The notes below the pieces were generated by a model. That model was given only the letters and a program-made list of their open reading frames with translations. It had not been told where the DNA came from and ran no database searches. The position numbers and the translations under genes were made by a program. Below, piece by piece: positions 39,882-63,963 of a stretch of DNA of 64,000 bases (its first letter is position 1; every line of letters starts with the position of its first letter). The stretch comes from an uncultured Synechococcaceae cyanobacterium (lineage in GTDB: Bacteria; Cyanobacteriota; Cyanobacteriia; PCC-6307; Cyanobiaceae), in the NCBI GenBank assembly GCA_902572395.1, contig CACGFX010000005.1, forward strand, positions 1-64,000, given 5' to 3'.

Positions 39882-40694
39882 CTAACGAAACTCTTTACTT
39901 CGATTACTAGCTGAAACTATTGATTCCATTAATGCTGACCTTACACTCTTTTTTTCTAAAACCCTTAAAGCAGAAATAGTTGTTCCACCTGGAGAGGTTA
40001 CTAAATTTTTAAGCTCAGAAGTAGTAAGTTTATTTTCCTTTATTAGACAAATAGTCCCTAGTATCATTTCCATGACAAGTTCCTCTGAAATTATTTTTGG
40101 TAATCCCCCACTTAATCCTCCATCACTTAATGCTTCTATAATTAAAGCAATAATTGCAGGACCTGATGAAGTTAAAGCTAAAAATATATCAAGGTAATCT
40201 TCAGTAAATTCATAAATTCTACTAGTATTTTCAAATAATGTTTTTGTAAATTGTTTCTGATCTTCCGTAATTTCTTCTCCCCAAGAAATCCCAGTTAAAC
40301 CTTTTCCAATAGTTATTGGAATATTTGTAACCACCCTCACACATTTATGGTTAGGAAACTTTTGAGTAAGTCTATTTATTGAAACCCCTGCAAGAATTGA
40401 AACTATTAAATTTTCCTTATTTTGAATATGATGGGCCTCACTTATATCATTTAATTGTTGGGGTTTTATCGAAAGAAGTTTATATTGACAATCCCAAATT
40501 ATTTTTGACTCTTTAGAACCTGATTTATAAACGTTTATATTATGTTTATAATTTTTTCTTATGTTTTCTAAACTTTTTTCGGTTTTTACAACACAAAAAA
40601 CATTCTCTGGCTGAATTAATTTGTTATCTAATAGAGGGGTAACTATAGCACTTGCAATATTTCCAAAACCAATAATCGCAATTTTATCTGTCAC
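39882..40694 (-). CDS. proC: Pyrroline-5-carboxylate reductase
   Basis: Last step of proline synthesis. The 270-residue NADPH enzyme has IAIIGFGNIASAIVTPLL at the N-terminus and the C-terminal LTSSGPAIIALIIEALSDGG and TSPGGTTISALRVLE, all ProC motifs. It is directly downstream of sepF (7 bases), an arrangement common in Gram-positives and cyanobacteria. Confidence 0.95.
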   Translation of the reverse strand: MTDKIAIIGFGNIASAIVTPLLDNKLIQPENVFCVVKTEKSLENIRKNYKHNINVYKSGSKESKIIWDCQYKLLSIKPQQLNDISEAHHIQNKENLIVSILAGVSINRLTQKFPNHKCVRVVTNIPITIGKGLTGISWGEEITEDQKQFTKTLFENTSRIYEFTEDYLDIFLALTSSGPAIIALIIEALSDGGLSGGLPKIISEELVMEMILGTICLIKENKLTTSELKNLVTSPGGTTISALRVLEKKSVRSALMESIVSASNRSKEFR

Positions 40695-47120: not shown

Positions 47121-47202
47121 GGGTCGGTGCCCGAGTGGTTAAAGGGGGCGGACTGTAAATCCGCTGGCTCTGCCTACGTTGGTTCAAATCCAACCCGGCC
47201 CA
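47121..47202 (+). tRNA. tRNA-Tyr (GUA)
   Basis: Class II tRNA with acceptor stem GGGTCGG / CCGGCCC, anticodon loop containing GTA (ACTGTAAAT), a long variable arm and the TTCAAAT T-loop. CCA is not encoded. It lies 10 bases upstream of the next tRNA. Confidence 0.95.
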
Positions 47203-47212
47203 CTTTAAAATT

Positions 47213-47284
<72 letters not shown>

Positions 47285-47659
47285 TGACCAAAAGCATTGC
47301 TACGAAAGAAAATTAAAAGGAATAAGGAAAGATTAACTTATAGCCAGATGTATCTAGATATGTCGACAATATAATAATTCTGCACTAATTACACTTTTAA
47401 AATGACTAGTGCTAACAGCACTACTTGAGTAAAAGATTTAAGAAAAAAAATCTGCACTAATTTTGGTCGTGGAATTAGGGTTAATGGCGAAAATAGCGGT
47501 ATAACAAAACAAACCGAAGAGACCATTTAGTGATCCTGAAGTAAATAAACTCTTTAATAAGTTAAGTATTAATTATTAGTTTTTTACTCTTAAAAATCAT
47601 CAATAAAGGTAATCCAATAAACATCAAACTCCCATCAATTAATAAAAAAGTATTTAAAT
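47285..47659. other. Gene-poor stretch after the tRNA pair, with short repeats
   Basis: About 375 bases without a convincing gene. It holds a 12-base direct repeat (TCTGCACTAATT at 47379-47390 and 47451-47462, 72 bases apart) and, between the copies, a perfect 7-bp stem with a 3-base loop (TAGTGCT-AAC-AGCACTA, 47407-47423). Nothing else is recognised. A short ncRNA is possible but unsupported. Confidence 0.4.
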
Positions 47660-47860
47660 TCAGTTATCTTTTTCTTGGTTAATTTCAAAAGATAGTGGAA
47701 TCCCTTTTTTCACTGAATCTTTCTTCATTTCTTCCATATCTTTTCTAATCTTATTGTAATAAGAAAGTTCTTCTAGATCATCAGAACCAAGACCATATCC
47801 CATTGTCGCGGCTAGATAAATCCTTACTTTCTTTTTACTATTAAACTTATTCAAAATCAT
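47660..47860 (-). CDS. Hypothetical protein (66 aa)
   Basis: ATG-started frame beginning MILNKFNSKKKVRIYLAATM and ending in a Lys/Glu-rich helix (YYNKIRKDMEEMKKDSVKKG). It is probably soluble; no family recognised. It lies alone in the sparse region after the tRNAs, divergent from a predicted extended -10 promoter. Short length and isolation limit confidence. Confidence 0.5.
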   Translation of the reverse strand: MILNKFNSKKKVRIYLAATMGYGLGSDDLEELSYYNKIRKDMEEMKKDSVKKGIPLSFEINQEKDN

Positions 47861-47902
47861 TGCTATGACTGCTTTATTAGTATCACTATATACAGTAGAA
47901 TA

Positions 47903-47911
47903 TGCTATAAT
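47903..47911 (+). promoter_or_regulatory. Extended -10 promoter (TGC-TATAAT)
   Basis: TATAAT at 47906-47911 is preceded by TGC, a consensus extended -10 element. No good -35 box is seen, which such promoters can lack. Predicted transcription starts around 47917, at the base of the stem-loop region listed next. Confidence 0.5.
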
Positions 47912-47915
47912 ATAT

Positions 47916-47972
47916 ATCGGTAACTTAGTGTAAGAACACTATTTTGGGATTTACATGACCCTGAAAACCGAT
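47916..47972 (+). ncRNA. Candidate structured RNA or leader (three-way junction)
   Basis: Closing stem ATCGGT (47916-47921) with ACCGAT (47967-47972) encloses a perfect 6-bp hairpin TAGTGT-AAGA-ACACTA (47926-47941) and a weaker GGG/CCC hairpin (47946-47948 with 47959-47961). It starts at the predicted start site of an extended -10 promoter. It could be a small RNA or the 5' leader of the 45-residue ORF at 48050. No known Prochlorococcus RNA family was identified by eye. Confidence 0.35.
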
Positions 47973-48049
47973 GAGAAGTTAGAAGAATAATTAATAAATT
48001 TAAATCTTAAATTTCACAGTCATCACATTTAATTAGGAACATTTTATCT

Positions 48050-48187
48050 ATGAACACATCATCAGAAACTTTGATTGATAGAACTGAAAGACTTTTAAAA
48101 GAAGATGAAAACTATAGAGCGATTCTTGAAAAACTTTTTTTACTAGATAATCAGCATTTTGAAAGATATTTTATTAAGTGCTCTTAA
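48050..48187 (+). CDS. Small ORF (45 aa), unknown
   Basis: ATG-to-TAA frame: MNTSSETLIDRTERLLKEDE, then NYRAILEKLFLLDNQHFERY and a short tail. It is mostly predicted amphipathic helix. An AGGAA-like site lies about 12 bases upstream. No family recognised; it may be expressed from the promoter near 47906. Confidence 0.45.
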   Translation: MNTSSETLIDRTERLLKEDENYRAILEKLFLLDNQHFERYFIKCS

Positions 48188-48218
48188 ATAATTATCTCTA
48201 CCAAGCAACTTAATCTCA

Positions 48219-48447: not shown

Positions 48448-48629
48448 AGTTATAGCCTAATACCTTAATAACAAAAGAATCAGTAATATTACTCTCATAA
48501 AAAAGGAGCTTATTACGCTAAACATGTTTAATTGACCTTGATTTCTAGTAAAGATATTTCTTTTTTCGTTTTTTGCTTATTTTTAGTTATTCATCTAAAC
48601 ATTAAAAGAATACATCTTCTCCTAACAAT

Positions 48630-48968
48630 CTAATTAAGCTTATAACTAGTAGTTAATGTTTTAACTATCGATTTTTGAGGATCTTTATTTGGATAACAAT
48701 TAACAATTCTATATTTGCCTCCTTTTCTATCAGTTTCAACAAAAGTAAATTGAACAAATTTTTCTTTTTTAGTACTCGAAGAATCCTTAATTTCTACTTT
48801 GATTATTTCCTCATTTTTACTTTCAATCAATCTTGATTTACCTCCACAAACACGAACAGCAGTTTCTTTAGTTACAGAAAACAATTTATTTTCATTAGTA
48901 ATGGATAGTTCATCTTTAGTACTACAAGAAGTAATAAAAAGGAGAATTACAACTAAAATCTTTTTCAT
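48630..48968 (-). CDS. Small putative lipoprotein (112 aa)
   Basis: The N-terminus (MKKILVVILLFITSCSTKDE) is a short lipoprotein signal with a lipobox-like ITSC, so the mature protein would begin at Cys15. The remainder is a Lys/Thr/Ser-rich domain with two more cysteines (VCGGK, NCYPNK) that might pair. It is probably attached to a membrane facing the periplasm. No family recognised. It stands alone in the gene-poor stretch. Confidence 0.6.
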   Translation of the reverse strand: MKKILVVILLFITSCSTKDELSITNENKLFSVTKETAVRVCGGKSRLIESKNEEIIKVEIKDSSSTKKEKFVQFTFVETDRKGGKYRIVNCYPNKDPQKSIVKTLTTSYKLN

Positions 48969-49118
48969 AGTTTTTTAGATGACAAGTTCACTTGAAATTT
49001 AATTTAAATTTTCTTTTATTAAGTTGGGTAAGATAAGACTGAATTTCTTTCTATACATTATTTTTAAATACATATTATTGAAATTAATTTAAATTTTGAT
49101 TGAAGAGAATTAATCATT

Positions 49119-50132
49119 TTAAAAATTTGCCTTTTCCTCAATTAATGAACATACGTTATCGAAATACTTGCTATTTTCTTTTTTTAAAAATAGATTTATG
49201 CCCTCAATACGTAATTTTGTATTGATAATGGGCAAACTTGTTAAAAGACTGTATTTACTTTTAATGGTTTCATTTGGCATCGTTTCGTCCATAAATAACT
49301 TTTCCTCATGAGAACAGCAAGGGCATTTATAGAAAGACATATTTTCAATTAATCCATAAATTGGCATTCCAAAATTTTCATACATAGACGTTGTTCTTAT
49401 TAAATCAGAATAAGATGATGAACCTGGCAAAGTAACTAAAATCACCCCAACTATTGGACTATCTTGAAGAAGAGTTATCTGAGTATCGCCTGTACCTGGA
49501 GGTAGATCGATAAGCAAGAAGTCTAATTCACCCCAATCAACTTGATACAAAAACTGATTTAGTAATCTTGTTAATATCGGACCTCTCCATGCAAGTGATT
49601 GATTTGATTTTGCAAGCATTGCAACAGACATTATTTTTAAGTCTTCATGATCTAATGCAATAAATTTGACTTTTCCATTTTCCTCCTTAGTCGATACGTC
49701 TTGTTTACTCAATCCAACAATATTAGGGATATTAGGTCCATAAACATCGGCATCTAAAATACCTACTTTAAAACCTCTTTTTTTTAAATTTAATGCAAGG
49801 CCAACAGTCACAGAAGATTTACCTACTCCACCTTTTCCACTACCAATAGCAATTGTCCTTTTAACTCCTTCAATAAATTTGAGATCTAAATATACTTTTT
49901 TCGCCCATGAAAAAATTTTTAGTTTATTCTCAATTATTTTTTTTAATTTAATTTGATCTGATCCAAGAAATAACTTCAAATATAAATAATCTCCAACAAC
50001 TCTTATATTCCTCACAACGCAAGATGAGATTAGATCACCATAAATTTCTCTAAATTCTAGAGATTTTAAATATTCTTTTACTTGATTCTGTCTAGCCTCA
50101 TTTTCTTTATTATCCTCATTTGAATTACTCAT
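49119..50132 (-). CDS. Mrp/ApbC/NBP35-family Fe-S cluster carrier ATPase
   Basis: P-loop protein of 337 residues. The N-terminal DUF59-like part (about 1-90) is followed by the deviant Walker A GSGKGGVGKSSVTVGLAL, DADVYGPNIPNI, LLIDLPPGTGDTQIT and a cluster-binding CPCC in FYKCPCCSHEE. Mrp/ApbC proteins carry and donate 4Fe-4S clusters. It is last of four tightly packed genes including an Fe-S ferredoxin, suggesting dedicated maturation. Its ATG overlaps the HEAT-protein stop (ATGA). Confidence 0.9.
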   Translation of the reverse strand: MSNSNEDNKENEARQNQVKEYLKSLEFREIYGDLISSCVVRNIRVVGDYLYLKLFLGSDQIKLKKIIENKLKIFSWAKKVYLDLKFIEGVKRTIAIGSGKGGVGKSSVTVGLALNLKKRGFKVGILDADVYGPNIPNIVGLSKQDVSTKEENGKVKFIALDHEDLKIMSVAMLAKSNQSLAWRGPILTRLLNQFLYQVDWGELDFLLIDLPPGTGDTQITLLQDSPIVGVILVTLPGSSSYSDLIRTTSMYENFGMPIYGLIENMSFYKCPCCSHEEKLFMDETMPNETIKSKYSLLTSLPIINTKLRIEGINLFLKKENSKYFDNVCSLIEEKANF

Positions 50133-51109
50133 ACATTCAATTTTTCTAAAGCTTTTTGAGATTGAATTCTTACTTCAATATCAGCATCATCTAATGATTG
50201 TTTTAAAGGTGGTATTGCCTTTTTAGATCCTAATAAACCCAAAGCGATAGCAGCTTCTTTTCTCACATCTGAATAATCGTCACAAAGTAATTTCACTATT
50301 TCCCCTAAATATTCCTCGGATAGTACTTTTGTAAGAGCTCTCATTGAAAACTTCCTTACCTGCCAATGCAAGTCCGAAATAGCAGAAGAAAGAGATTTAG
50401 AAGAAGAATTATCCGCATGCATTTCTAATGCGATGGCTGCATTTCGTCTTACTTCCCAAGACTCATCATTTTCTAGAGAATTACACAATATTGAAACAAT
50501 ACAATCTTCTCTAAAATTTCCAAGAGTTAACATTGTTTCCTTTCTTACTTCTTGATCAGGGTCATCAGCAAGGGTGTTTGCTGGGGTAAAATGGGTTAAT
50601 TGATTAAGATATCTAAGCGTAATAACAGCCTCTTTTCGTATATTTTTATTCTCTGAAGACAAATAGGGGCTAATTGAGGGTAATGCCTGAACATCATGAA
50701 TTTTTCTCAATAAAATTAAAACATAAATTATCTGTAATTCATCGTCACTCTCCAAATAGTCTAATAACTTAAGTAAATGATCTTGATTTATTAATTCTTT
50801 AAGAGCACTACATGCTTCATCACTTACTTTTTTATCTCTTTTACTGTTTATACATTCCAGCAATGGTAAAACAGCTTTAGCATTTGCCATTTCCCAAAGT
50901 GTAGTGACAGCAATAAGTTGAACTGAAGAGGAAGGGTCTTCGAGAGCGTGAATCAAAAAAGGGATCGTATCTTCATCGCATTCCTGTTGTAAATTTACTG
51001 CAGCTACAAGTCTATCTCCTTCATCATCGGAGGAAAGCATTTCAACCATTTCTTGAACTTCTTCATCTAAAAGATCAATTTCAGATTGTAGAGATTGGTT
51101 AAATTTCAC
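50129..51109 (-). CDS. HEAT-repeat protein
   Basis: Protein of 326 residues built of about nine HEAT/PBS-lyase-like repeats, e.g. DEDTIPFLIHALEDPSSSVQ and DVRKEAAIALGLLGSKKAIP. The first 20 residues are acidic. Such scaffolds act as protein-protein adaptors or lyases for phycobilins; with no catalytic motif, an adaptor or maturation role for the neighbouring flavoprotein-ferredoxin is more likely. Start is ATG 2 bases after the ferredoxin stop. Confidence 0.85.
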   Translation of the reverse strand: MKFNQSLQSEIDLLDEEVQEMVEMLSSDDEGDRLVAAVNLQQECDEDTIPFLIHALEDPSSSVQLIAVTTLWEMANAKAVLPLLECINSKRDKKVSDEACSALKELINQDHLLKLLDYLESDDELQIIYVLILLRKIHDVQALPSISPYLSSENKNIRKEAVITLRYLNQLTHFTPANTLADDPDQEVRKETMLTLGNFREDCIVSILCNSLENDESWEVRRNAAIALEMHADNSSSKSLSSAISDLHWQVRKFSMRALTKVLSEEYLGEIVKLLCDDYSDVRKEAAIALGLLGSKKAIPPLKQSLDDADIEVRIQSQKALEKLNV

Positions 51110-51111
51110 AA

Positions 51112-51339
51112 TTATCTAAGAAGAAATGGAATTTGAACAGTTATTGCTCCCACCGGACATTCCTTTTCACAGGGTAAACAAAACCAACATTCATCATACT
51201 TCATATATGCTTTTCCTGTATCTGGATTTTTTGCAAGTACATCTAAGGGACATACTTCTATACAGGCTTTACATTTATCGAGACATTTACTTTCATCGAC
51301 TATTACTGGGACGTCTACTCGGTTGCTAGTTAAGGCCAT
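51112..51339 (-). CDS. 4Fe-4S ferredoxin, AprB-like
   Basis: Small 75-residue protein with two four-cysteine cluster motifs: CLDKCKACIEVCPLDVL and CWFCLPCEKECPVGAI. The order and the ECWFCLPC spacing resemble the ferredoxin part of adenylylsulfate reductase beta subunit (AprB), without its C-terminal extension. It lies about 40 bases downstream of the AprA-like flavoprotein gene and would pass electrons to or from it. Confidence 0.88.
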   Translation of the reverse strand: MALTSNRVDVPVIVDESKCLDKCKACIEVCPLDVLAKNPDTGKAYMKYDECWFCLPCEKECPVGAITVQIPFLLR

Positions 51340-51381
51340 AATTAGTTATTAAAAGAAATTTTTTATTTTTGAAGAAATGAT

Positions 51382-53088
51382 TTAAGCGACAGAAACGTCA
51401 TATTTTTCCTCATTTAAATTGACATCAAATAAATAGGGTTTTAAATCTTCTTTGAAGATGGTCATTTCATTATTGTCAAGACTTTTTTTGATAATGGTGT
51501 TGCACATCCACTCTTCATCATTCCTGTTTGGAAAATCTAATCGATAATGATAAAGTCCCCATCGACTTTCAGTCCTGTAGAGCGATGCTTTGGCAGCCAT
51601 TTCAGCGCAATCTCTTATAAAATGAATCTCCATACATCTCATCAATTCATGAGGATCTCTTGCTCCTAATTCATCTATAACATTTTTATAGTCTATGAAT
51701 TTTTCCAAACCAATTTTCATATTTTTTGGAGACTTTGGAGGCTGTAAATAATCATTTACAAACCTTCTAAGTTTATATTCAACCTGTGTATGAGGAATTC
51801 CATTTGGATTATTTAAAGGAGCTAATAATCTCTCTTTCTCAGTATTAATAAAATCTGAATCAACATCACCATGATCTATATCTTTTATGTAATCCATAGC
51901 ATGTTCTGCAGCAACTCTTCCAGAAACAAAAGCTCCAATCATATAGTTGTGTGGAACATTTGCCATATCACCAGCCGCATACAGTCCAGGGATGCTCGTT
52001 CTCATAAATTCATCAACTTGAACACCTGAAGCAGAATGTCCACTACATAAACCTATTTCTGAGATATTCATCTCAACTCCATCTCTCCTGTAGTTTTCTC
52101 CTCTTCCAGCGTGAAATCTCTCTCTACTAGGTCTCTCATTATCAAATAATATTGTTTCAATTTCAGATATTGTAGATTCATCGAGATGATACATTTTTAA
52201 ATGAACTGGCCCTTGTCCCGAATTCAGCTCTCTCCAAACTTCTAACATCATTTGACCACTCCAATAATCACAACTTATGAATCTATTGCCAGATGCATTA
52301 GCTGTATAAGCTCCAAAGGGGCTTGCTACATAAGCACATGCAGGGCCGTTATAGTCCTTAATAAGTGGATTTATCTGGAAGCACTCTATATTAGATAATT
52401 TTGCACCAGCTTGATAAGCCATAGAATATCCATCACCTGCATTAGTAGGATTTTCATAAGTACCATATAAATATCCTGAAGCAGGTAAACCTAATCTTCC
52501 GCACGCCCCAGTACATAGTAAAATTGCCTTTGATTTTATGACATACATGTCACCACTTCTCACATCTAATCCGGTAATGCCTATTGCTCTTCCATTCTGA
52601 GTTAAAACACGAGTCGCCATAACTCTATTGATAACTTTTATTTTATTCCGTTTAACTTGTCGAGATAATATTTTCTTCAAATCCTTTCCCTCTGGCATGG
52701 GTAAAACATACTTCCCAACTCTATGAACTTGTTTTAAATCATATTTACCCTCATTATCTTTTTGAAATTTTACTCCCCATTCTTCAAGTTCTTGGATAAC
52801 ATCAAAACCTAAAAGTCCAGTTTTGTGCACAGCTGACTGATCTAAAATTCCATCATTTGCTATTGTTATTTCTCTGACGTATTGTTCGGGAGTGGAATTT
52901 CCAGGGATAACAGCAGTATTAACACCATCCATTCCCATAGCAATTGCCCCACTTCTTCTGATATTCGCTTTCTCTAAAACAAGGACGGATGAATCTGGTG
53001 ATTTTTGCTTAGCCTTGACAGCAGCCATACATCCTGCAGTACCTCCTCCAACTACCAAGAAATCAACTTCAAGATTAATTATTTCCAT
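51382..53088 (-). CDS. AprA-like FAD oxidoreductase (fumarate reductase / succinate dehydrogenase flavoprotein family)
   Basis: FAD protein of 568 residues. The Rossmann motif is DFLVVGGGTAGCMAAVKA; then come RRSGAIAMGMDGVNT, LLCTGACGRLGLPASG, GEN-type loops and GLYAAGDMANVPHNYMIGAF. The RSGA-AMG stretch and the ferredoxin partner make it closer to adenylylsulfate reductase alpha (AprA) than to SdhA. It has no signal peptide, so it is cytoplasmic. It heads the four-gene unit with the ferredoxin, HEAT and Mrp genes, and is divergent from the LysR-type gene. Substrate unknown; true APS reductase activity is not implied. Confidence 0.85.
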   Translation of the reverse strand: MEIINLEVDFLVVGGGTAGCMAAVKAKQKSPDSSVLVLEKANIRRSGAIAMGMDGVNTAVIPGNSTPEQYVREITIANDGILDQSAVHKTGLLGFDVIQELEEWGVKFQKDNEGKYDLKQVHRVGKYVLPMPEGKDLKKILSRQVKRNKIKVINRVMATRVLTQNGRAIGITGLDVRSGDMYVIKSKAILLCTGACGRLGLPASGYLYGTYENPTNAGDGYSMAYQAGAKLSNIECFQINPLIKDYNGPACAYVASPFGAYTANASGNRFISCDYWSGQMMLEVWRELNSGQGPVHLKMYHLDESTISEIETILFDNERPSRERFHAGRGENYRRDGVEMNISEIGLCSGHSASGVQVDEFMRTSIPGLYAAGDMANVPHNYMIGAFVSGRVAAEHAMDYIKDIDHGDVDSDFINTEKERLLAPLNNPNGIPHTQVEYKLRRFVNDYLQPPKSPKNMKIGLEKFIDYKNVIDELGARDPHELMRCMEIHFIRDCAEMAAKASLYRTESRWGLYHYRLDFPNRNDEEWMCNTIIKKSLDNNEMTIFKEDLKPYLFDVNLNEEKYDVSVA

Positions 53089-53189
53089 GGGTAACTTCGT
53101 TATTTTATACCTTCTATTATATCCGAAAAACTATGATATATCTCGGTTTTAGGTATTTATAGAAACTATTGCGCTATTAAATAATTTTA

Positions 53190-53213
53190 TAGGTTAATTT
53201 AAATTCAAACCTA
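53190..53213. promoter_or_regulatory. Inverted repeat between the AprA-like and LysR genes
   Basis: Perfect 6-bp arms TAGGTT (53190-53195) and AACCTA (53208-53213) with a 12-base AT-rich centre, in the divergent intergenic region. It is a possible operator of the divergently encoded LysR-type regulator. Confidence 0.35.
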
Positions 53214-53262
53214 ATCAAAAAAATCCAGAATGATTAAAAATCTCTAAATTGAGTATAAAAAA

Positions 53263-53282
53263 TATGTGTAATTAGATACATA
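53263..53282. promoter_or_regulatory. TATGT-N10-ACATA inverted repeat upstream of the LysR gene
   Basis: Five-base perfect arms 53263-53267 and 53278-53282, about 46 bases before the LysR start. Size and AT-rich centre suit a LysR-type recognition site but would also occur by chance in such AT-rich DNA. Confidence 0.3.
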
Positions 53283-53327
53283 AAAACCTCTTATTTAATA
53301 TCATCATATATGTAATAAGGTAGGTAG

Positions 53328-55304
53328 ATGGAGTTATCTCAACTAAAAGTATTTTTTGAAGTTTCAGAACATCTAAACTTTTCAAAGGCTGCGAAAAAAT
53401 TACATCTTAGTCAACCTGCAGTTTCTATAAAAATTAAATCTCTTGAAAAATCACTCAAAGTTGAATTATTCAAAAGATCTCAAAACAAGTTGGAATTAAC
53501 CAAAGCAGGATTAGAAACGAAAAAAGCATGCATAAAAATATTTGAAGAAATATCATTATTGCAAGAAAAATTAAATGAAGAAAAACACCAGCAAGAAAAA
53601 TTAAATTTATTCTTCAACGTCAATACACAAGAAAATCTTATAAGCAAATTAATTTTAATTTTCGAAGATTCTTTGAAAGAATTAATTAAGATTAATTATT
53701 TTTCATGCTTTTCTGAAAAAGAGATATTGGAAAAAGTCAATAATACTTATAATTCCTTTGGAATAGTTTCTTCAGAATCTTCCGGCTTAAATACAAATTC
53801 TATTCCTTGCTTCCCAAATGAAATAGTTCTCCTAAAGAAAAATTCAACCAATAGATCATTAGATTTCTCAAATTTAGAAAGTATTAAGAATGAAAAAATA
53901 TTATTTCCTGAAAAAAATTCAGATGATTACTCAATTATTGAAAATAGATTAGGGATAGCAGGTTATAAATTTGAAGATTTCGATAACAAGAAATTTGTAA
54001 GCTCTGCCTTAATTAATTCATTAACTAAAAATAGCGATTGGTTAGCTATTACTACTTTAAATATATTCGAGAGGGAAAATCTAGAGGGCATCGAGATTAT
54101 AAAGTTAGATGAACTTTTTATCCCTTATACAAAGTATCTTATTTTCAATAAAGGTAATGAAAATAATAATCTAAAAAACTTTAGTAATTTACTTGAACTA
54201 TTAGTTGAATTATCTTCAAAATCTGTAGATGAAGTTCAGGAATCTTTATTTAGGAAAGATATTCCTCACCACAATAATCTGACCTATAAGGATAATTTTT
54301 TACCATTTCAGAAAATTTATTTAAATAATATAGATAGAAATAATAAAATCAATATCGATGTAAAAATTGGAGTTCAACACGACACTATTCAAACATCATT
54401 AGCTTCAATAATTCCAGAAAAACTTTGTTTATTTGATTTATTCCTTAATGAATGTAAAAGAAAAGATAACATTTCACCTAAATGGATAAATCATAATTCT
54501 GCCTACCCAATAATCTCAAAACTAAAAACTGAAGAACTTGATTTCGGTATTGTAGGAGATTATGCAATTTCTCATCTAGCAAATCAGGAAACTAATTCTG
54601 CCGAAGATATTGTATTGGTTAGTTTTGTGAGCATAAATCCTGAGGGAGGCGGTTCGAATTTAATATTACCTAGAGATTCCAACATCAAATCTTTAGGTGA
54701 ATTTTCTAAAGGCTCAACGATTGCAGTTCCATTTTTATCTACAGCTTATGGATCTTTACTTTATAACCTTAAATCTCAAAATTTGAGAAAAGAAGTAACC
54801 TTAAAAGACTACAGCATTAATAATATAAATTCCATTAAAGAAACGAATGTTGATGCATTTGCGTTCTTTACTCCATTTGATTACTTATTAGAATCAACAA
54901 AAGATTTTGAAATTTTAAATGAAAGTATTAGCGCACCAATTTCGTATTATGGTGTTTTGGTAAGAAAAGCGTTTTTACAGAAGAATGAAGATATCGTTAA
55001 AGCATTTATAAAGTCACTTATAAGTGCAAAATATTGGTTTTATTCAGCTTCCTCGACAATACAAAAAATTAGTAAATGGACTGGAGTAAGCGAAAAAATT
55101 GTCAACTCAATTTTAGGAAATAGAGTTGGCAAAGATTGTCATTACATACCTGATATGAAAATCAGGAAAGATTGGATTGATACTTATACGAATGAAATAT
55201 ATTTTGAACCTAGCAGTGTAGATTTTAATCAAACTACAAAGAAAAATCCAATTATATTTGAGGATTTGCTAAGTGATGCTTATAAAGAGTTAAATCTTAA
55301 ATGA
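53328..55304 (+). CDS. LysR-type regulator fused to a TauA/NrtA-like binding domain
   Basis: Protein of 658 residues, twice the usual LysR length. Residues 1-60 are the LysR helix-turn-helix (MELSQLKVFFEVSEHLNFSK, AAKKLHLSQPAVSIKIKSLE). Residues about 90-300 look like the canonical LysR effector domain. From about residue 345 a second ligand-binding domain follows, aligning with the solute-binding protein encoded at 58048-59547: KIGVQHDTIQTS, LDFGIVGDYAIS, STIAVPFLSTAYGSLLY, DAFAFFTPFDYL and ISKWTGVSEKIVNSILG all have counterparts. It has no signal peptide, so the domain is cytoplasmic and probably a sensor. A ribosome site (TAAGG) precedes the ATG. It is divergent from the AprA-like unit and its 3' end overlaps the YeiH-like gene by 8 bases. 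Confidence 0.85.
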   Translation: MELSQLKVFFEVSEHLNFSKAAKKLHLSQPAVSIKIKSLEKSLKVELFKRSQNKLELTKAGLETKKACIKIFEEISLLQEKLNEEKHQQEKLNLFFNVNTQENLISKLILIFEDSLKELIKINYFSCFSEKEILEKVNNTYNSFGIVSSESSGLNTNSIPCFPNEIVLLKKNSTNRSLDFSNLESIKNEKILFPEKNSDDYSIIENRLGIAGYKFEDFDNKKFVSSALINSLTKNSDWLAITTLNIFERENLEGIEIIKLDELFIPYTKYLIFNKGNENNNLKNFSNLLELLVELSSKSVDEVQESLFRKDIPHHNNLTYKDNFLPFQKIYLNNIDRNNKINIDVKIGVQHDTIQTSLASIIPEKLCLFDLFLNECKRKDNISPKWINHNSAYPIISKLKTEELDFGIVGDYAISHLANQETNSAEDIVLVSFVSINPEGGGSNLILPRDSNIKSLGEFSKGSTIAVPFLSTAYGSLLYNLKSQNLRKEVTLKDYSINNINSIKETNVDAFAFFTPFDYLLESTKDFEILNESISAPISYYGVLVRKAFLQKNEDIVKAFIKSLISAKYWFYSASSTIQKISKWTGVSEKIVNSILGNRVGKDCHYIPDMKIRKDWIDTYTNEIYFEPSSVDFNQTTKKNPIIFEDLLSDAYKELNLK

Positions 55305-56310
55305 CTAAGAATTTATAACTAAGTATTAATAGAACAAAAGAACTAATTAAACTATATAACTGAAGTTTAGGAGCAAAATTTTTAATATTAAATATATTAA
55401 AATTTATACTAATTTCAAAAACAACTAAACATAATAAGAATTTAGAAATAACTTTTCCACTACTCAATATTAAATTAAATGTATTTGTGATAAAAAAATT
55501 ATTTTGGAAAAAATTTAAAATAAGTAAATCAAAAAAATTCGCTATCGCAATTACAATTAAAAATTTTATTAAAAAAGAGGGAATTGCGCTTTTGCCTAAA
55601 GTAAATTTATTCTTAGAGATATCTTCACGATAATTATAATTAAATGATAAGAGGACCAAAAATGGAGTCAGAAATAATATCCTCAAAGATTTAATAATAA
55701 TTGCCGTTTCAAGAGAATTTTCGGAATAAATTGCTGCACTGCTAATAACTTGCGCAGTAGATTGGATTGATGATCCAGCCCATAGTCCAAAGTTATATGG
55801 ACTTATTTCGAGTAGTTTGCCTAATATGGGAAGAATAATTACAAGAATAAAACCTGAAAAAGTATTGATCCATAAAGCTGTTGAAATATCATTTTTATTT
55901 GATTTAATAACCTTTGAGGCAAATGCTATTGCAACTGGACCACATATACAATTGCCAGCTATTAGCAAAAGTGCAATAGGTTTTTTAATGCCCAATATTT
56001 TTGAAAAGATAATACTTATGTAATAAGTTCCAAGAATACAAACAACAATCCAAAAGATCATCATAGGATTTAGAAGTTGTATTTTACTTAATAGAATTTG
56101 GCTCCCCATAATAATTATTGCAATTGACAATAATTTCTCATAAGGAATTTCTTGATAAAAAAGATTACTTTGAATTTTAATAATCCTTGCTAGCTGACCA
56201 ACAAAAAAAGCAAGAACAATTGGATCTAAGAAAATTAAGGAAGAAAGTTTATAAAATGGCGTTGAGAATGTAATTATGTTGATAGCTAGAATTATGAGAA
56301 TACATATCAT
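55297..56310 (-). CDS. YeiH/YadS-family membrane protein (putative sulfate exporter family)
   Basis: Integral membrane protein of 337 residues with about 10 helices. Family-like stretches are DPIVLAFFVGQLARI, GNCICGPVAIAFASKVIKSN and WAGSSIQSTAQVISSAAIYS, the last corresponding to the conserved GxSIHdvAQV segment. The family (Pfam Cons_hypoth698) is described as putative sulfate exporters, and some members sit beside sulfonate-degradation genes. Its ATG overlaps the ABC ATPase stop, so it is cotranscribed with the second transporter. Transported ion is inference. Confidence 0.8.
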   Translation of the reverse strand: MICILIILAINIITFSTPFYKLSSLIFLDPIVLAFFVGQLARIIKIQSNLFYQEIPYEKLLSIAIIIMGSQILLSKIQLLNPMMIFWIVVCILGTYYISIIFSKILGIKKPIALLLIAGNCICGPVAIAFASKVIKSNKNDISTALWINTFSGFILVIILPILGKLLEISPYNFGLWAGSSIQSTAQVISSAAIYSENSLETAIIIKSLRILFLTPFLVLLSFNYNYREDISKNKFTLGKSAIPSFLIKFLIVIAIANFFDLLILNFFQNNFFITNTFNLILSSGKVISKFLLCLVVFEISINFNIFNIKNFAPKLQLYSLISSFVLLILSYKFLVI

Positions 56311-57116
56311 TGCATTAATTTCAATGTTTCTTCTTTAATTAAATTAAGAATTTTTATTTTTACTTTCTGAAATTCTTCAAGAAAAGATGAATCTAAACTT
56401 CTAGGCCTTGGAATATTAATTGGGATAATTTCTCTAATGTGACCAGGGTTTACGCCCATGATTATTACTCTATCTGCTAACAAAATTGCTTCATCAACAT
56501 CATGAGTTACAAATACGACTGTTGTCTCAAACTCCCTCCAAATCTTTAGTAACATTTCTTGCAACAAACTCCTTGTTTGAGCATCAACAGCTCCAAAAGG
56601 TTCATCCATTAAAATTATTTTTGGATTAGTTATTAATGCTCTTATGATGCTTCCCCTTTGCTGCATACCACCAGACAATTGATTTGGATAAGCTTTTCGA
56701 TATTTTTCCAAACCCACAAGTTTTAAATATTTAGTAACTTTTTCTTCAATATCTTTACTGTTAAACTTTTGAAGTTTTAGTCCATAACCTACATTTTGCT
56801 CTAAAGTTTGCCAAGGAATTAAGGAATTTTTCTGAAAAACAAACCCTCTTTCTGGACCAGGTTTCCGAACAACTTCATCACTTACAGAAATCAATCCTTC
56901 ATCTGGCTTTGTAAAACCAGCCAACAAGTCTAATAACGTCGATTTACCACAACCAGATGGTCCAAGAATACATGTAAACTCTCCTTTGCTGATTTGAAAG
57001 TTTACATTTGAGAGTATGATCTTTTTTTTATTGTTTGTTTTAAATGTTTTGATAACGTTATCTACCAAAACATAATTTTCTTGGATTTTTGATTTTTTAA
57101 TCATGTCAAATGCCAT
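56307..57116 (-). CDS. ABC transporter ATPase, TauB/SsuB/NrtD type (transporter 2)
   Basis: ATP-binding subunit of 269 residues: Walker A LGPSGCGKSTLLDL, signature LSGGMQQRGSIIRALI, Walker B ILMDEPFGAVDAQTR, H-loop VTHDVDEA. The MQQR and MDEPFGA(V/L)D forms are typical of nitrate/sulfonate/taurine importers. It overlaps the permease gene by 11 bases and the YeiH-like start by 4 bases. Confidence 0.92.
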   Translation of the reverse strand: MAFDMIKKSKIQENYVLVDNVIKTFKTNNKKKIILSNVNFQISKGEFTCILGPSGCGKSTLLDLLAGFTKPDEGLISVSDEVVRKPGPERGFVFQKNSLIPWQTLEQNVGYGLKLQKFNSKDIEEKVTKYLKLVGLEKYRKAYPNQLSGGMQQRGSIIRALITNPKIILMDEPFGAVDAQTRSLLQEMLLKIWREFETTVVFVTHDVDEAILLADRVIIMGVNPGHIREIIPINIPRPRSLDSSFLEEFQKVKIKILNLIKEETLKLMQ

Positions 57117-57972
57117 CCTTTGAAATAGTTCTCCAAGGCATGAAAGAATCCGTTATTTTTAGAACAATAAATGAAGAAAAGGCACCCATTAATCCAATAA
57201 GTACCATCCCCATAACTATGGGCGGATATTCTGAAATTACATAAGATTCCCACGTTTTGTATCCAATACCAAATCTTCCAGCAATGATTTCAGCTGTAAC
57301 TAAACAAAACCATGCATTACCCATACCAATGACCAAACCAGCACTAATACCTGGTAATGAACTTGGTACTATTATGTCTTTAAATAATTGAAAAGAATTA
57401 GCACCTAATGATTGCCCAACTCTAATCATCAAACGATCAGATAAAGAATTCTCTACTGCCTTTTGAGTACTTATAAGTATTGGATAAAAAGCTCCAACAA
57501 AAGTTATATAATACATTCCTGATTCGGCATCAGGAAACATTAAGATTGCTAATGGTATCCAAGCTACGGCAGGGATTGGTCTCAACAATTCTAAAGGAGT
57601 TGCTAAAAGATCTTCTAATATCTTGGATGATCCAATTAGTAATCCAACAAAAATTCCTAATATTGAGCCAGAAATAAAACCTCCAATAACTCTAAGAATA
57701 CTTGCTTTGAAATGAACCCATGGAGAATCATTAATGAATTGAATGAAAGCATTTATAACTTCAACAGGTGTAGGAACGAAAACAAAATTTATTATGAAGT
57801 TAAAATCGATCCAACATAAAAATTCCCATAATAAGAAAAACAGTATTATTGATATTAATTTTCTAGTGTAGGTTTTTGAATTAATTCGAATTAATTCCCA
57901 TAACATTAATCGCTCTTTTTTAAATGATTTAAAATAAAAATTTGATTTTGAAGAAACGTTAGTTGAAGACAT
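57106..57972 (-). CDS. ABC transporter permease, TauC/SsuC/NrtB type (transporter 2)
   Basis: Membrane subunit with six helices and the family EAA-type loop (VGQSLGANSFQLFKDIIVPSSLPGI). LLRPIPAVAWIPLAILMF is the hallmark of the nitrate/sulfonate/taurine group. I start it at ATG 57972 (MSSTNVSSK); the longer TTG frame would run into the hairpin at 57985. It is paired with the ATPase gene and preceded by its binding-protein gene. Confidence 0.9.
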   Translation of the reverse strand: MSSTNVSSKSNFYFKSFKKERLMLWELIRINSKTYTRKLISIILFFLLWEFLCWIDFNFIINFVFVPTPVEVINAFIQFINDSPWVHFKASILRVIGGFISGSILGIFVGLLIGSSKILEDLLATPLELLRPIPAVAWIPLAILMFPDAESGMYYITFVGAFYPILISTQKAVENSLSDRLMIRVGQSLGANSFQLFKDIIVPSSLPGISAGLVIGMGNAWFCLVTAEIIAGRFGIGYKTWESYVISEYPPIVMGMVLIGLMGAFSSFIVLKITDSFMPWRTISKDGI

Positions 57973-57984
57973 ATTAATTAAAGA

Positions 57985-58010
57985 AAACATCTCCAAATTT
58001 GGAGATGTTT
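57985..58010 (-). terminator. Perfect palindrome after the binding-protein gene (terminator/attenuator)
   Basis: AAACATCTCC (57985-57994) and GGAGATGTTT (58001-58010) around AAATTT; the central six bases also pair. On the minus strand it is followed by a T-rich run. Lying between the binding-protein stop (58048) and the permease ATG (57972), it probably reduces permease expression relative to the binding protein. Confidence 0.75.
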
Positions 58011-58047
58011 ATTGATTTTTTTCAGGTTTTAATAAAAGTAAATTTAC

Positions 58048-59547
58048 TCAACTATATTTTTTAGAAAGAGTTTTGAAATCTAAGACTTCAGAATTAACTG
58101 ACTCTGCAAATTTGTCTGCATCTGATTTCAATAGGAAAGAACTAATCATTCCATCTTCATCAACATAAAATGCATTCGTAGCAAATAACTTCCATCCCTG
58201 GAATCTGTCGTGAACAAAAAGGACGCTTGGAGTCTTTGATTTAAATTTGCCGTTCAATGCTAAAAGCATATTTTTAGTCGAGGCAAAGTTCTTAACTTTC
58301 TTTTGTCCTTCAAACCAAATTTGGGCTGCCATTTTTGGATTTTCTATTGTGGAAGAGTCATATGAATCTTTCCCTGTAATGACATAAGAAGCACCTTTTT
58401 CGCTTTGCTCATCAACAGATGTTCCTAATTCAGAGACTGCCGCCTCTAGGAAAGAGTCATCGATCCAATCTCTCACATCACTTGGCTGTATTGATTTATC
58501 TTGAATTTTTCCAAGATCTTTTAATACTGCAATGCTATTTTCCAAAGCAAGTAACTGAACTTCTTTTATCTCAGGCGTAAGAGGTTGTAGTCCAGATGGT
58601 CCTAAGAACATATAAACAACTTCTTTATCTATGCCTGACCACTCTTCAATACTCGCAGATAACTTTTCTGGAGTCTTTTGAAATTTATTATTTGCTTGAA
58701 TTACCGACTTCATAAAAGCTGTTACAACTTCAGGACATTGCTTTGCGAAATCTTCCCTTACAGTTATTCCATGTAAAGTGGGGACACCTGTTTGGGCTCC
58801 ATCAAAAATTTTCTTAGCATAACCTTTGAAGGGGAATAATTCTCCAAATGGAACAAAATCAGCATGAGCTGCAATCTGATTTTTTTGTAAAGCAGATCCT
58901 CCAACAGCAGGGGCCTGACTAATTAAAGTAACATCCCTTTTGGTATCGAGACCGGCATCACTTAACGCTTTTAGTACCATGCCATGAGCAGCAGAGCCAA
59001 ATGGAACAGATACAATCCCACCCTTTAAATCTGTCAATTTAGTAGCAGAACTATTTATTGGAACGACAACTGCATTCCCAGCCCCATTAGGGCTGTAAGC
59101 CAATGTTCCTATGTAAACAGTCTTAGCCTTACCACTACCCTCTCTTCCTTTTATTAAATTGATAACTGCAGGGAAATCTCCCATCAAACCAATTTGTATT
59201 TGATTGGCAATCATTTTATTTGTAATTGGAGGTCCAGAGGTATAACTTGACCATTCCAGATCGTACTTTAAGCCTTTGTATTCTCCATCAGTCGGAAGAT
59301 TATCCTTAAAGATTTCTAATTCTCGAACAACAGCTCCCCCCACTGCTGTATTAATAACTTGATCTTGCGTTCCAACATGAATTTTGGAACAAACCGCTTT
59401 TCCTGATTTTTTCCCGAATGGAAATGCATTAGCCTGAGGACTTAGAAAAGATGTTGCGAAGGAAAGTGCAATTATTAGTTTCCAAAATTTACCCCTTTTG
59501 TAATTAAATCTTTTGGATAAATTTTTATTTGGATGATAAGTCTTCAT
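58048..59547 (-). CDS. ABC transporter substrate-binding protein, NrtA/TauA-like (transporter 2)
   Basis: Exported binding protein of about 500 residues, longer than TauA (about 320). An N-terminal signal (FWKLIIALSFATSFLSPQ, cleavage after ANA) is followed by KIHVGTQDQVINTA, IQIGLMGDFPAVINL, VSVPFGSAAHGMVLKAL and AAHADFVPFGELFPF. The extra C-terminal 150 residues have no obvious family match. I use ATG 59547; a longer frame starts at 59586. Its core aligns with the C-terminal domain of the LysR-type protein at 53328. Ligand unknown. Confidence 0.88.
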   Translation of the reverse strand: MKTYHPNKNLSKRFNYKRGKFWKLIIALSFATSFLSPQANAFPFGKKSGKAVCSKIHVGTQDQVINTAVGGAVVRELEIFKDNLPTDGEYKGLKYDLEWSSYTSGPPITNKMIANQIQIGLMGDFPAVINLIKGREGSGKAKTVYIGTLAYSPNGAGNAVVVPINSSATKLTDLKGGIVSVPFGSAAHGMVLKALSDAGLDTKRDVTLISQAPAVGGSALQKNQIAAHADFVPFGELFPFKGYAKKIFDGAQTGVPTLHGITVREDFAKQCPEVVTAFMKSVIQANNKFQKTPEKLSASIEEWSGIDKEVVYMFLGPSGLQPLTPEIKEVQLLALENSIAVLKDLGKIQDKSIQPSDVRDWIDDSFLEAAVSELGTSVDEQSEKGASYVITGKDSYDSSTIENPKMAAQIWFEGQKKVKNFASTKNMLLALNGKFKSKTPSVLFVHDRFQGWKLFATNAFYVDEDGMISSFLLKSDADKFAESVNSEVLDFKTLSKKYS

Positions 59548-59630
59548 AATAAAAACTTTGTAAATACATACATATTGAATAATCAAATTTCTTATACAAA
59601 AAAGTTACTTATGATACACAGAATTCATAC

Positions 59631-59653
59631 GCTTATAATTCTTGTTTATAAGC
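59631..59653. promoter_or_regulatory. GCTTATAA-N7-TTATAAGC palindrome upstream of transporter 2
   Basis: Perfect 8-bp arms (59631-59638 and 59646-59653), 7-base spacer, about 84 bases before the ATG of the binding-protein gene. It contains a T-N11-A arrangement of the LysR kind. It also overlaps TATAAT-like -10 sequences, so it may combine promoter and operator. Confidence 0.5.
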
Positions 59654-59746
59654 AAATTTACTATAAAAAAAATTAATAGTTATTTAGAAATTATTCACCT
59701 ATTAATCTTTTAAGGATCTAATTCTAAATTTAATTTTTAAAATTTT

Positions 59747-60559
59747 TTATTGGTTTTGTTTCTCAAATGCTTTTATACTCTCCTCTCTAATTAAGCTATG
59801 GCATATTTGTCTCAATTCTATAAATCTTTTTGAATCTGTTGTTTCTTTATCCCTTGGTCGAGGAAGATCAATTTTTAAATCTCTTTTAATTTTTCCAGGG
59901 AGCGTACTCATTAATAAAATTCTATCAGCCAAAAAAACAGCCTCATCAATATCATGAGTTACGAAAACAACAGTTATCTTAAATTCTCTCCAGATTTTCA
60001 GAAGATTTTCCTGCATAATAATTCTTGTTTGAGAGTCAAGTGCTCCAAAGGGTTCATCCATTAATAAAACATCGGGATAATTTGCTAATGCTCTTGCAAT
60101 TCCAACTCTTTGTTGCATTCCTCCAGATAATTCATTTGGATAATGATTTGCATATTTTGAAAGGCCAATCATATCTAAAAATTTTGCAGCTATTTCTTCT
60201 GGAGACTCATCCCCCTTTTTATTGATACTAGGGCCAAATGAAATATTCTCTTTTACTGTTTTCCAAGGATATAAAGAATATTGTTGAAACACCATCCCCA
60301 TTTCAGGACTTGGTTTATTTATTTCCTTATTATCTAGAGAAATTTTTCCATTAGATGGATTTACGAATCCCGCGATACCATTTAATAGTGAAGACTTACC
60401 GCATCCAGAAGGACCCAATATGCAGACAAATTCTCCGGGATTAATTGTTGCAGAGATATCTTTTAAGGCATAAATTTGCTCATTGCGAGAAGAATAGCTT
60501 ATTGAGATATTATCAATTACTACTTTACCTTTTGTTCTTGTGAGTACGTTTTGATTCAT
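59747..60559 (-). CDS. ABC transporter ATPase, TauB/SsuB type (transporter 1)
   Basis: ATP-binding subunit of 270 residues with GPSGCGKSSLLNGIAGF, LSGGMQQRVGIARALA, LLMDEPFGALDSQTR and VTHDIDEAVFLADRIL. It is closely similar in layout to the ATPase of transporter 2 but clearly a separate gene. It lies 23 bases downstream of the amidase and likely serves the permease and TauA-like protein encoded upstream. Confidence 0.92.
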   Translation of the reverse strand: MNQNVLTRTKGKVVIDNISISYSSRNEQIYALKDISATINPGEFVCILGPSGCGKSSLLNGIAGFVNPSNGKISLDNKEINKPSPEMGMVFQQYSLYPWKTVKENISFGPSINKKGDESPEEIAAKFLDMIGLSKYANHYPNELSGGMQQRVGIARALANYPDVLLMDEPFGALDSQTRIIMQENLLKIWREFKITVVFVTHDIDEAVFLADRILLMSTLPGKIKRDLKIDLPRPRDKETTDSKRFIELRQICHSLIREESIKAFEKQNQ

Positions 60560-60582
60560 TGTAGAAAATTTAGTTAAAGAAT

Positions 60583-61953
60583 CTATTCCTGATGAACAGG
60601 AAAATTTTTTAGAAGAGTTTCAGCAACAAAGCCTACTTTTGAATCTTCAAAAGCCTTACCAAAAATAGTTACACCAAATGGCATACCATTTTCATAGAAA
60701 GCAGCTGGTATGGAAATTCCACTTAAATCTAAAATATTTGCGAAATATGAATAGTATCCTAAGTTGCTATTTGAACCGATAGGATCTTTTTTAAGATCAG
60801 AAATTTTACATAATAAACCTACTGTAGGTGTCATTAGAAATTCATTACAACCTAGTTCCGATTCTAAAAAATATTGTATTTCTTTAACTCTCTCTTGAGC
60901 TTCAAAAACATCTTTACCACTCCACTTTTGACCATTTTCTAAAATCTTTAAGGTTGTATCTAAAACAGCATTTTTATTTTTTGTAAGGAATTTATATAGA
61001 GAGGAGTATCTTTCAGCTACCCAAGGGCCATCGAATAACATTCTTCCTGCCTCCAAAAACATCGAGAAATCTATCGTAATAATCTCAATATCATCTTCTT
61101 GAAGTTTCTCTAATAAATTTTCATATAATCTTCTTGCCTCTTTATTGCCAAAGAAATTTCTTTGTTTATCTTCAGGAACTCTTATCTTAATTCTTTCCTT
61201 AATTTTCTGAATTTGAAAATTTCCTCTTTGAAAGTCATATCGTAAAGTTTTATCTTTTTTTGAATCAGAAAAAGCAATATGCGCTATTTCTAGAGCATCT
61301 TTTACCGACAAAGCAAATACAGATGGGCAATCAAGACTGGGACAACAAGGGACGAAACCTTTAGTACTTAAAGTTCCTTTAGTAGGCTTTAGTCCAATAA
61401 TATTATTCATAGCAGCGGGTATTCGTCCTGATCCACCTGTATCGGTTCCAATAGAAAAACAAACTTGTTTTTTAGCAACTGACAGAGCAGAACCTGAACT
61501 AGAACCGCCAGATATATATTCATCATTAAAAACTGAGGTACAAACTCCATAAGGCGATCGAGTACCATTTAATCCAGTTGCAAACTGATCGAGATTTGTT
61601 TTACCAAGGCAAATTGCTCCAGCATTTTCTAAAGCTTGTACTACTGGAGAAGATTGTTCTGGAAAGTATGAATATTTTGGACATGCTGCTGTAGTTGCTA
61701 AACCCTCAACGTCAATATTATCCTTTACAGAAAAAGGTATGCCCCATAATGGTTTATTCTTTGGTGATGATGTTGAGACTAATTCTGCAATTTTGATAGC
61801 CTCTGATCTTTTCCTAAGAGAAATCCATATTTTATCCTTGGAGTCTTTTTCAATTCTTTCATAACATTCATTTATAAGATCAACTGGGCTCAAACTTGAA
61901 TCATCATATAATTCTCTGATTGAGTTTAAATTAAATTTATTTTTCAAAATCAT
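60583..61953 (-). CDS. Amidase signature family hydrolase
   Basis: Ser-cisSer-Lys amidase of 456 residues. The catalytic lysine lies in GIPFSVKDNIDVEG, and the serines in ISGGSSSGSALSVA and GTDTGGSGRIPAA. It resembles allophanate hydrolase/AtzF-type and indoleacetamide-type amidases more than GatA; for example GSGR replaces GSIR. It is placed inside the transporter 1 gene set, so it probably hydrolyses the imported compound or a product of it, releasing ammonia or an amine. Exact substrate unknown. Confidence 0.85.
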   Translation of the reverse strand: MILKNKFNLNSIRELYDDSSLSPVDLINECYERIEKDSKDKIWISLRKRSEAIKIAELVSTSSPKNKPLWGIPFSVKDNIDVEGLATTAACPKYSYFPEQSSPVVQALENAGAICLGKTNLDQFATGLNGTRSPYGVCTSVFNDEYISGGSSSGSALSVAKKQVCFSIGTDTGGSGRIPAAMNNIIGLKPTKGTLSTKGFVPCCPSLDCPSVFALSVKDALEIAHIAFSDSKKDKTLRYDFQRGNFQIQKIKERIKIRVPEDKQRNFFGNKEARRLYENLLEKLQEDDIEIITIDFSMFLEAGRMLFDGPWVAERYSSLYKFLTKNKNAVLDTTLKILENGQKWSGKDVFEAQERVKEIQYFLESELGCNEFLMTPTVGLLCKISDLKKDPIGSNSNLGYYSYFANILDLSGISIPAAFYENGMPFGVTIFGKAFEDSKVGFVAETLLKNFPVHQE

Positions 61954-61980
61954 TTACTAATGTGAATAATGAGTATTAAA

Positions 61981-62006
61981 AAAAAGGGGTTTTACCCCCC
62001 TTTTTT
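61981..62006 (-). terminator. G/C-capped hairpin after the TauA-like gene
   Basis: AAAAAGGGG (61981-61989) pairs with CCCCTTTTT (61997-62005) around a 7-base loop. On the minus strand the stem ends in a run of T. It lies about 13 bases after the TauA-like stop and before the amidase ATG, so it may partly end the transcript as an attenuator. Confidence 0.75.
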
Positions 62007-62018
62007 ATGAATTAAATG

Positions 62019-63050: not shown

Positions 63051-63127
63051 TTTTTTTTTAGATAAAATCTTTAAGGATAAAGGTTGTTTTTTGTCCGACA
63101 AATGGACTTTGGCTTGATAATTGAAGC

Positions 63128-63958
63128 CTAGGGCCCGAGATATCGGGTCCAAGGCATCAAAATTCTTCCTATAAATCGCATAAATATATCAAGACCAATT
63201 CCTGTTAGGCCTAAAACTATTAATCCCATAATCACAACATCTGATAACAAAAACTTTGCCGCATCCCAAATCATCCAACCAATCCCTGCAGATGCCGCAA
63301 CAATTTCAGCAGCTACTAAGACTGTATAAGTAAAGCCTAGTGATATTCTCATTCCTGCAAGTATTGTTGGACCAGCTGCTGGAAGATAAACATTAAACAG
63401 TATTGTTTTTTTCGATGCACCCAAACCTTTGGCGACTCTTAGGTAAACAGGATCAATATTTTGAACTGCTTGAATGGTAGCTATTATTAGTCCCGGCAAT
63501 GCTGCTAAAAATAAAAGCGCAAGTTTTGACTCTTCTCCAATACCTAGCCACATTACCAAAAGTGTATATAAACCTAGAGGAGGCAATGGTCTATAAAACT
63601 CTATTAAAGGATTTAACAGGGCTCTAGCTATTTTTGATGCCCCCATTAAAACGCCCATTGGAATACCTACAATGCAAGCCATAATGAATGCAGCTAATAT
63701 CCTATTTACGCTTGTGAATACATGAACAAATAATGTATTTCCTTGGTAGCCTTCAGTTGAGACTTCTATAAAAGATTGCCAAATTTTTAAAGGGCCTGGG
63801 AGAAAAAGTTCATCAGCCAGTCCGGTTTCAGTAACTACTACCCAAGTAATAAATAAAATATTTACAGTTAACATCGAATACGCAAAAGTTTTTTTACGCA
63901 TAAAAGGAGGAATAAATCTTTTGATATTTCTTTTATTTTTTATTTGATTATTATTCAT
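63128..63958 (-). CDS. ABC transporter permease, TauC type (transporter 1)
   Basis: Six-helix permease of 276 residues. The family region is FYRPLPPLGLYTLLVMWLG and the EAA-type loop is AKGLGASKKTILFNVYLPAAGPTI. The gene lies 77 bases upstream of the TauA-like gene on the same strand. The ATG at 63958 is 5 bases from the stop of a further upstream gene, so the operon continues beyond the window. Confidence 0.9.
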   Translation of the reverse strand: MNNNQIKNKRNIKRFIPPFMRKKTFAYSMLTVNILFITWVVVTETGLADELFLPGPLKIWQSFIEVSTEGYQGNTLFVHVFTSVNRILAAFIMACIVGIPMGVLMGASKIARALLNPLIEFYRPLPPLGLYTLLVMWLGIGEESKLALLFLAALPGLIIATIQAVQNIDPVYLRVAKGLGASKKTILFNVYLPAAGPTILAGMRISLGFTYTVLVAAEIVAASAGIGWMIWDAAKFLLSDVVIMGLIVLGLTGIGLDIFMRFIGRILMPWTRYLGP

Positions 63959-63963
63959 TATTT

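Follow-up and report, generated by a model that had tools for sequence, protein, structure and literature searches.

Leader-peptide translation attenuators of the ermC type combine a short upstream ORF, mutually exclusive helices and inducer-dependent ribosome stalling. For the integrative islands of Prochlorococcus, we know of no settled account of the timing and manner of excision and movement. Tycheposons (Hackl et al. 2023, as cited in PMC10187409 and PMC10872708) are, according to the available passages of these two papers, Prochlorococcus elements with a tRNA location and a tyrosine recombinase; a repeat of a tRNA fragment at the far end is a further mark of them. The same passages contain no mention of the leader described below. 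An RNA of the Prochlorococcus islands, Yfr11 (RF02363), is reported from island 1 of strain MED4 (PMC2518516). A literature search recognised no publication as describing the leader, and neither the leader nor those of its relatives gave an Rfam 15 family at or above the gathering threshold.

We analysed a 64,000-nt stretch from an uncultured Synechococcaceae cyanobacterium (GenBank assembly GCA_902572395.1, contig CACGFX010000005.1, positions 1 to 64,000; hereafter the window), in which an original prediction had placed a structured RNA and a 45-residue peptide behind an extended -10 promoter at 47903-48187. Much of that outline stands. It had missed an 11-codon upstream ORF that overlaps the RNA, the excisionase and integrase context of the relatives, and the orphan status of the copy in the window. 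Put together as a single statement, we lean slightly towards reading the locus as an orphan mobile-element module controlled by a bistable RNA and an upstream ORF.

The promoter-leader region and its relatives

All features lie on the forward strand. The extended -10 element (47903-47911; TGC at 47903-47905 and TATAAT at 47906-47911) can be read directly in the sequence, and its TATAAT is retained in relatives; a consensus promoter scan did not list this promoter. The closing stem (ATCGGT at 47916-47921 and ACCGAT at 47967-47972, AUCGG/CCGAU in the RNA) bounds a 5' structured RNA with internal hairpins (47916-47972), the first of which (hairpin 1, TAGTGT-AAGA-ACACTA, 47926-47941) is a perfect 6-bp stem with a tetraloop, and these elements were found where they had been predicted. 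An ATG after hairpin 2 opens the 11-codon upstream ORF (MTLKTDEKLEE, 47955-47990), inside which the 3' arm of the closing stem falls. The remaining leader (47991-48049, identical to that of the sibling genome G034 at 56 of 59 positions) carries AGGAA at 48035-48039, and both this ribosome site and the 45-codon ORF that follows it (ORF45, 48050-48187) were confirmed. At the -35 position the window is poor (TCACTA); most relatives in alignment A5 have TTGCCA or a near variant 17 nt before TATAAT. In the window 2 nt have been lost between the -10 element and the stem, so that the predicted transcription start, right at the 5' base of the stem, suits the relatives better than the window. Upstream, a conserved block that includes the promoter (47806-47905) could be aligned in six and then in 18 copies and is 92% identical to G034, against only about 50% for 47660-47805. 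Global alignment with G034 is poor to the left of 47806, and blastn homology, which for G034 sets in again past the tRNAs at 47739, has its left edge at 47812 for G161 and 47838 for G151.

DNA searching of 60 genomes first turned up G034, with a 93% copy, and G021, with a 69% match. Thirteen related contigs found by pattern all carry the label Prochlorococcus, which places the genome of the window in that genus or near it. Six copies then served to build a model from sequence alone; run on 266 genomes of the genus, it detected 19 clear copies (E 6.5e-7 or better) in 16 of them, and a structure-aware model built from 17 copies (model R2, 17 rows, without G151b and G118) recovered the same 19 and one weak match in these 266 genomes. 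Among 400 genomes sampled from the family, the only matches outside the genus were two weak ones (E 0.0065 and 0.0078). The counts leave out G308 (E 0.0065), G344 (E 0.0078), G232 (E 0.056), four partial matches (G218, G100, G102 and G281) and a degenerate copy on contig 37 of G151 (E 7.6e-8). Contigs 9, 23 and 37 of G151 together hold three leader copies and a degenerate one in a single genome. A scan of viral contigs returned no match to one DNA pattern, and a second, by protein, confirmed no relative of the excisionase-like gene (xis) described below; phage records, searched twice, contained no match to an element leader or to ORF45. Matches to 48093-48158 in six loci (L003, L005-L008 and L010) resemble, by eye, one other conserved locus.

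Excisionase-like genes in relatives and an orphan copy in the window

Downstream of 16 of the 19 leader copies lies a gene for an excisionase-like protein of 75-78 residues, or what is left of such a gene: immediately after the leader in 12, behind ORF45 in three and behind another ORF in G021. Stops or missing parts mark the gene as a remnant in G161, G016, G159b and G151c, and the copies without it are those of the window, G034 and the degenerate G118. An AlphaFold2 model from seven aligned sequences has a winged-helix-like order (pLDDT 76.4), and its best PDB matches are 2kvv (a putative excisionase), 8dgl (RdfS) and 4j2n (Pukovnik Xis), with a best Foldseek E value of 6.7e-3 and none reaching 0.001; sequence matches are weak (phrog_66, 8.1e-4; phrog_2907, 3.5e-4). 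The predicted fold is that of a small winged-helix DNA-binding protein, and we regard the product as a putative excisionase. An integrase-like gene (PHROGs integrase match E 7.6e-4, no Pfam support) stands between xis and tRNA-Met in four of the five larger element loci, and 11 of 18 scanned loci, not counting that of G034, contain tRNA-Met. Given that xis or a remnant follows the leader in 16 of 19 cases, often near tRNA-Met and an integrase, the leader is very probably a promoter-leader module of integrative, tycheposon-like elements of Prochlorococcus. The repeats listed for five element loci (16-20 kb) and the G034 contig include none derived from a tRNA, and none was found in the 2 kb around the copy in the window. 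Five distant xis-like genes (G090, G119, G134, G136 and G139) showed no leader when up to 480 nt ahead of them were inspected by eye; G152 retains a degenerate one.

Several other features accompany these loci. Yfr11 lies on the same strand directly 3' of the xis-like gene in G021, G114 and G123 (L045 1771-1917, L046 4033-4176 and L042 1-53), an arrangement from which this MED4-island RNA may belong to a mobile-element transcript; in L049 the distance exceeds 4 kb. Tandem repeats about 99 bp apart occur just 5' of the leader, in or near the left gene, in L085 (11850-12140) and L089 (5185-5472). Glutamine-II riboswitch matches are present in the window (21012-21069) and on element contigs (L040 2927-2990; L047 1727-1786 and 6395-6457).

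In six elements in which xis follows directly, the leader is conserved more strongly than the gene that it precedes; two of these genes (G016 and G159b) contain stops. Mean pairwise identity among the six reaches 0.93 in the RNA ahead of the upstream ATG, 0.91 in the upstream ORF and 0.89 in the next 114-124 nt, which lead up to xis, and is 0.61 in xis itself; the promoter stands at 0.84 and the DNA further upstream at 0.77. In nine copies the values are 0.92 for the RNA, 0.85 for the upstream ORF and 0.78 for the upstream DNA. When all 18 copies are taken, including the window lineage and the degenerate one, the contrast shrinks: the upstream ORF has 1.19 changes per site, the 5' region 1.27, the part after the upstream ORF 1.28 and the DNA upstream 1.61. 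The leader is either swapped between elements or responds to something that they have in common, and on either account it is a cassette.

The stretch from about 47806 to 48187 is an orphan copy of this module, with ORF45 and without a detectable xis, and the same holds for G034. No relative of xis was found in the covered part of G000 (69% complete) or in G034 (92% complete), tblastn gave no integrase match below E 1 in the window, and no integrase was found on the G034 contig. ORF45 occurs in five of the 266 genomes, each time with the leader RNA upstream, at pairwise dN/dS of 0.17-0.52 over 10 pairs. Between the window and G034, ORF45 differs at 3 of 138 positions, the leader and ORF45 together at 6 of 197, and the RNA at 9 of 57 with a gap in addition (RNA against flanks, Fisher p 0.001, for a comparison picked after the data had been seen); the RNA part may thus be decaying or relaxing in the window. 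From its dN/dS and low divergence, ORF45 appears to be a constrained small gene, and by these sequence measures it looks like a real one; it has no Pfam match above cut-off and is predicted as a single helix (pLDDT 85.8, pTM 0.46). The structured RNA and peptide of the original prediction correspond, in outline, to a member of a conserved RNA family with some compensatory changes and to an ORF that appears to be under constraint.

The module lies at the edge of a variable region, 0.6 kb from tRNA-Thr (tRNA-Tyr and tRNA-Thr, 47121-47285). Twelve relatives share sequence with the window up to tRNA-Thr and are mostly different beyond it, and a relative of 47575-47831 is found nearby in eight of them. 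On contig 11 of G011 (40062-40159), a second, 89% copy of window 47189-47287 (tRNA-Thr) lies about 13 kb beyond the intact one, as would be expected if this tRNA-Thr were an integration site. The block to the right (48602-64000) encodes Mrp-like, HEAT, ferredoxin, fumarate-reductase-like flavoprotein and LysR-type proteins, ABC transporters with NMT1-like binding proteins, and an amidase. The flavoprotein is present in five of 121 genomes, including four of the five ORF45 carriers, and in G161 and G151 it is on a different contig from the leader.

Alternative pairings and the upstream ORF

The 47916-47972 segment has a minimum free energy of -13.7 kcal/mol and a z value of -2.50, with 6 of 200 shuffles folding equally well or better, and the fold of 47916-48190 as a whole is unremarkable against shuffles (z -0.24). 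Folded singly, 18 copies span z values between -3.42 for the window and +0.50 for G161, the poor folders being G161, G159b (+0.04) and G016 (-0.62). Pairs were counted in 17 of the 19 copies, 16 of them distinct, after the degenerate G151c and G118 had been dropped. The closing stem, hairpin 1 and hairpin 2 are paired in 92.1% of 240 cells, the closing stem itself in 96.9% of cells, and four pairs show a double change; in shuffles of this consensus structure, the covariation score was reached by 0 of 500 and the number of double-change pairs by 15 of 500. The prediction had placed two hairpins within the closing stem. Its stem and hairpin 1 are family-wide, and its second hairpin is specific to the window, with only 34.7% of cells paired among 16 distinct rows that include the window; the exact structure drawn for the window is paired in 58.9% of cells across copies.

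Most relatives have GUCU, and the window has GUGU, as the 5' arm of hairpin 1. This arm has two possible partners, the next strand (AGAC or ACAC) or a second copy of that strand just 3' of the upstream AUG. The alternative helix so formed is paired in 96.9% of 224 cells and is the state chosen by RNAalifold; shuffles reached its covariation score in 1 of 500 cases, its number of pairs in 16 and its number of pair types in 108, and across both structures the tests on pair and pair-type counts are the weaker ones (15, 16, 21 and 108 of 500 shuffles). In the alignment, column 23 has column 30 as its partner in one state and column 53 in the other, and in the window and G034 all three columns have changed (C to G, G to C and G to C). 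In G034 this triple change is complete for both helices; the window retains a break in one of the four alternative pairs. Compensatory changes in homologues, whose absence would have counted against the prediction, were present, and they give thin support, coming largely from the lineage of the window and G034. The triple change is a single event, explicable also by relatedness or by conversion of a short tract; as a sequence pattern, it hints at a bistable RNA switch. In minimum-energy folds of full-length leaders from five elements, the arm of hairpin 1 is predicted in three to pair with the start region of xis.

Excisionases often bind DNA adjoining their own genes, and the inverted repeats could instead be operator or arm-type sites for Xis, integrase or a repressor at the promoter, with the RNA fold as a by-product of DNA symmetry. 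The compensatory changes preserve DNA dyad symmetry as well, and conservation reaches about 100 bp upstream of the -10 element. However, conservation peaks within the predicted transcript (0.92 in the nine copies, where the upstream DNA has 0.78) and the frame of the upstream ORF is retained in 14 of 18 copies, and we consider this explanation unlikely.

We give similarly low weight to an independent small RNA of about 60-90 nt, released by processing or termination and acting in trans as the CI RNA of satellite phage P4 does. The compact fold at the 5' end would suit such a molecule, as would a 6-nt sequence exactly complementary to the hairpin arm that lies downstream in six of 18 copies, and IsrK of prophage Gifsy-1, reported to be both small RNA and mRNA (PMC4825925), offers a precedent. 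However, no terminator-like site was found after the structured RNA in the scanned stretch, and conserved sequence continues from the leader to the next gene. P4-like pairing of the 5' arm with the downstream leader was rejected, the complement being missing in 12 of 18 copies and not having tracked the arm change in the window and G034. The prediction had allowed for a small RNA, a riboregulated leader or both; the leader is the part that survives, in outline.

The upstream ORF was scored in 18 copies, with G118 dropped. The four in which it is not intact are G149 (10 codons), G021 (stop at codon 4), and G159b and G151c (no start); the last two also carry a damaged xis, as do G161 and G016 beside intact upstream ORFs. 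The commonest peptide is MRHNPDELLEE. That the peptide itself is the conserved object, as in a classical leader peptide, with the RNA structure incidental, is very unlikely: start, frame and stop are retained in 14 of 18 copies and 17 of 18 have no indel within its 36 nt, but the peptide is variable (MRHNPDELLEE, MTLKTDEKLEE, MIHNPDEIKED), some pairs covary, and parsimony changes fall about equally on the three codon positions (13/12/15), a substitution pattern without a coding signature.

Proposed control and comparison with described systems

The account that we prefer, regulation by a bistable RNA together with translation of the upstream ORF, is tentative, and we regard it as possible rather than probable. 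The transcript from the promoter would begin with a leader that folds, over its first ~60 nt, into a closed and branched structure holding the 11-codon upstream ORF. In one state, the 5' arm of hairpin 1 would bind the adjacent strand and leave the upstream AUG free; in the other, the same arm would bind the second copy of that strand just 3' of the AUG. The two states, with ribosomes on the upstream ORF, would set the downstream output (xis in the elements, ORF45 in the window), and an element would stay quiet until some signal tipped the balance. We speculate further that this leader, with its embedded upstream ORF, is a hitherto undescribed portable control cassette common to tycheposon-like elements, placed before strongly diverged xis genes and, being conserved more than these, acting as a sensor of host or helper-phage state that times excision; this extension is doubtful.

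A leader common to elements with diverged xis genes offers a defined control point; with 19 copies in 16 genomes out of 266, each from a different species, it also serves as a sequence tag by which these elements and their orphan copies can be located. ORF45 suggests that a small conserved protein can outlast its element.

The elements of the relatives resemble tycheposons, as these are presented in the available parts of PMC10872708 and PMC10187409, in lying beside tRNA-Met and in carrying a gene that resembles a tyrosine recombinase; on the side of the differences, no tRNA-derived end repeat appeared among the repeats listed, and the copy in the window lacks a detectable xis or integrase. 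The downstream genes share with the Xis/RDF genes of phages and integrative elements a size of 75-78 residues and matches to excisionase folds, although their sequence matches are weak, and our finding concerns the leader and not the protein. Like Yfr11, the leader is an island RNA of Prochlorococcus, and Yfr11 directly follows xis in three of the elements; it is, however, a different RNA at the opposite end of xis, and the leader does not match it. Set against ermC-type attenuators, the leader has sequestration of the main start as a prediction only, in three of the five folds; like them, it appears to interleave a short upstream ORF with mutually exclusive helices, both of its states being paired in more than 90% of cells and the changes in both coming from one lineage.
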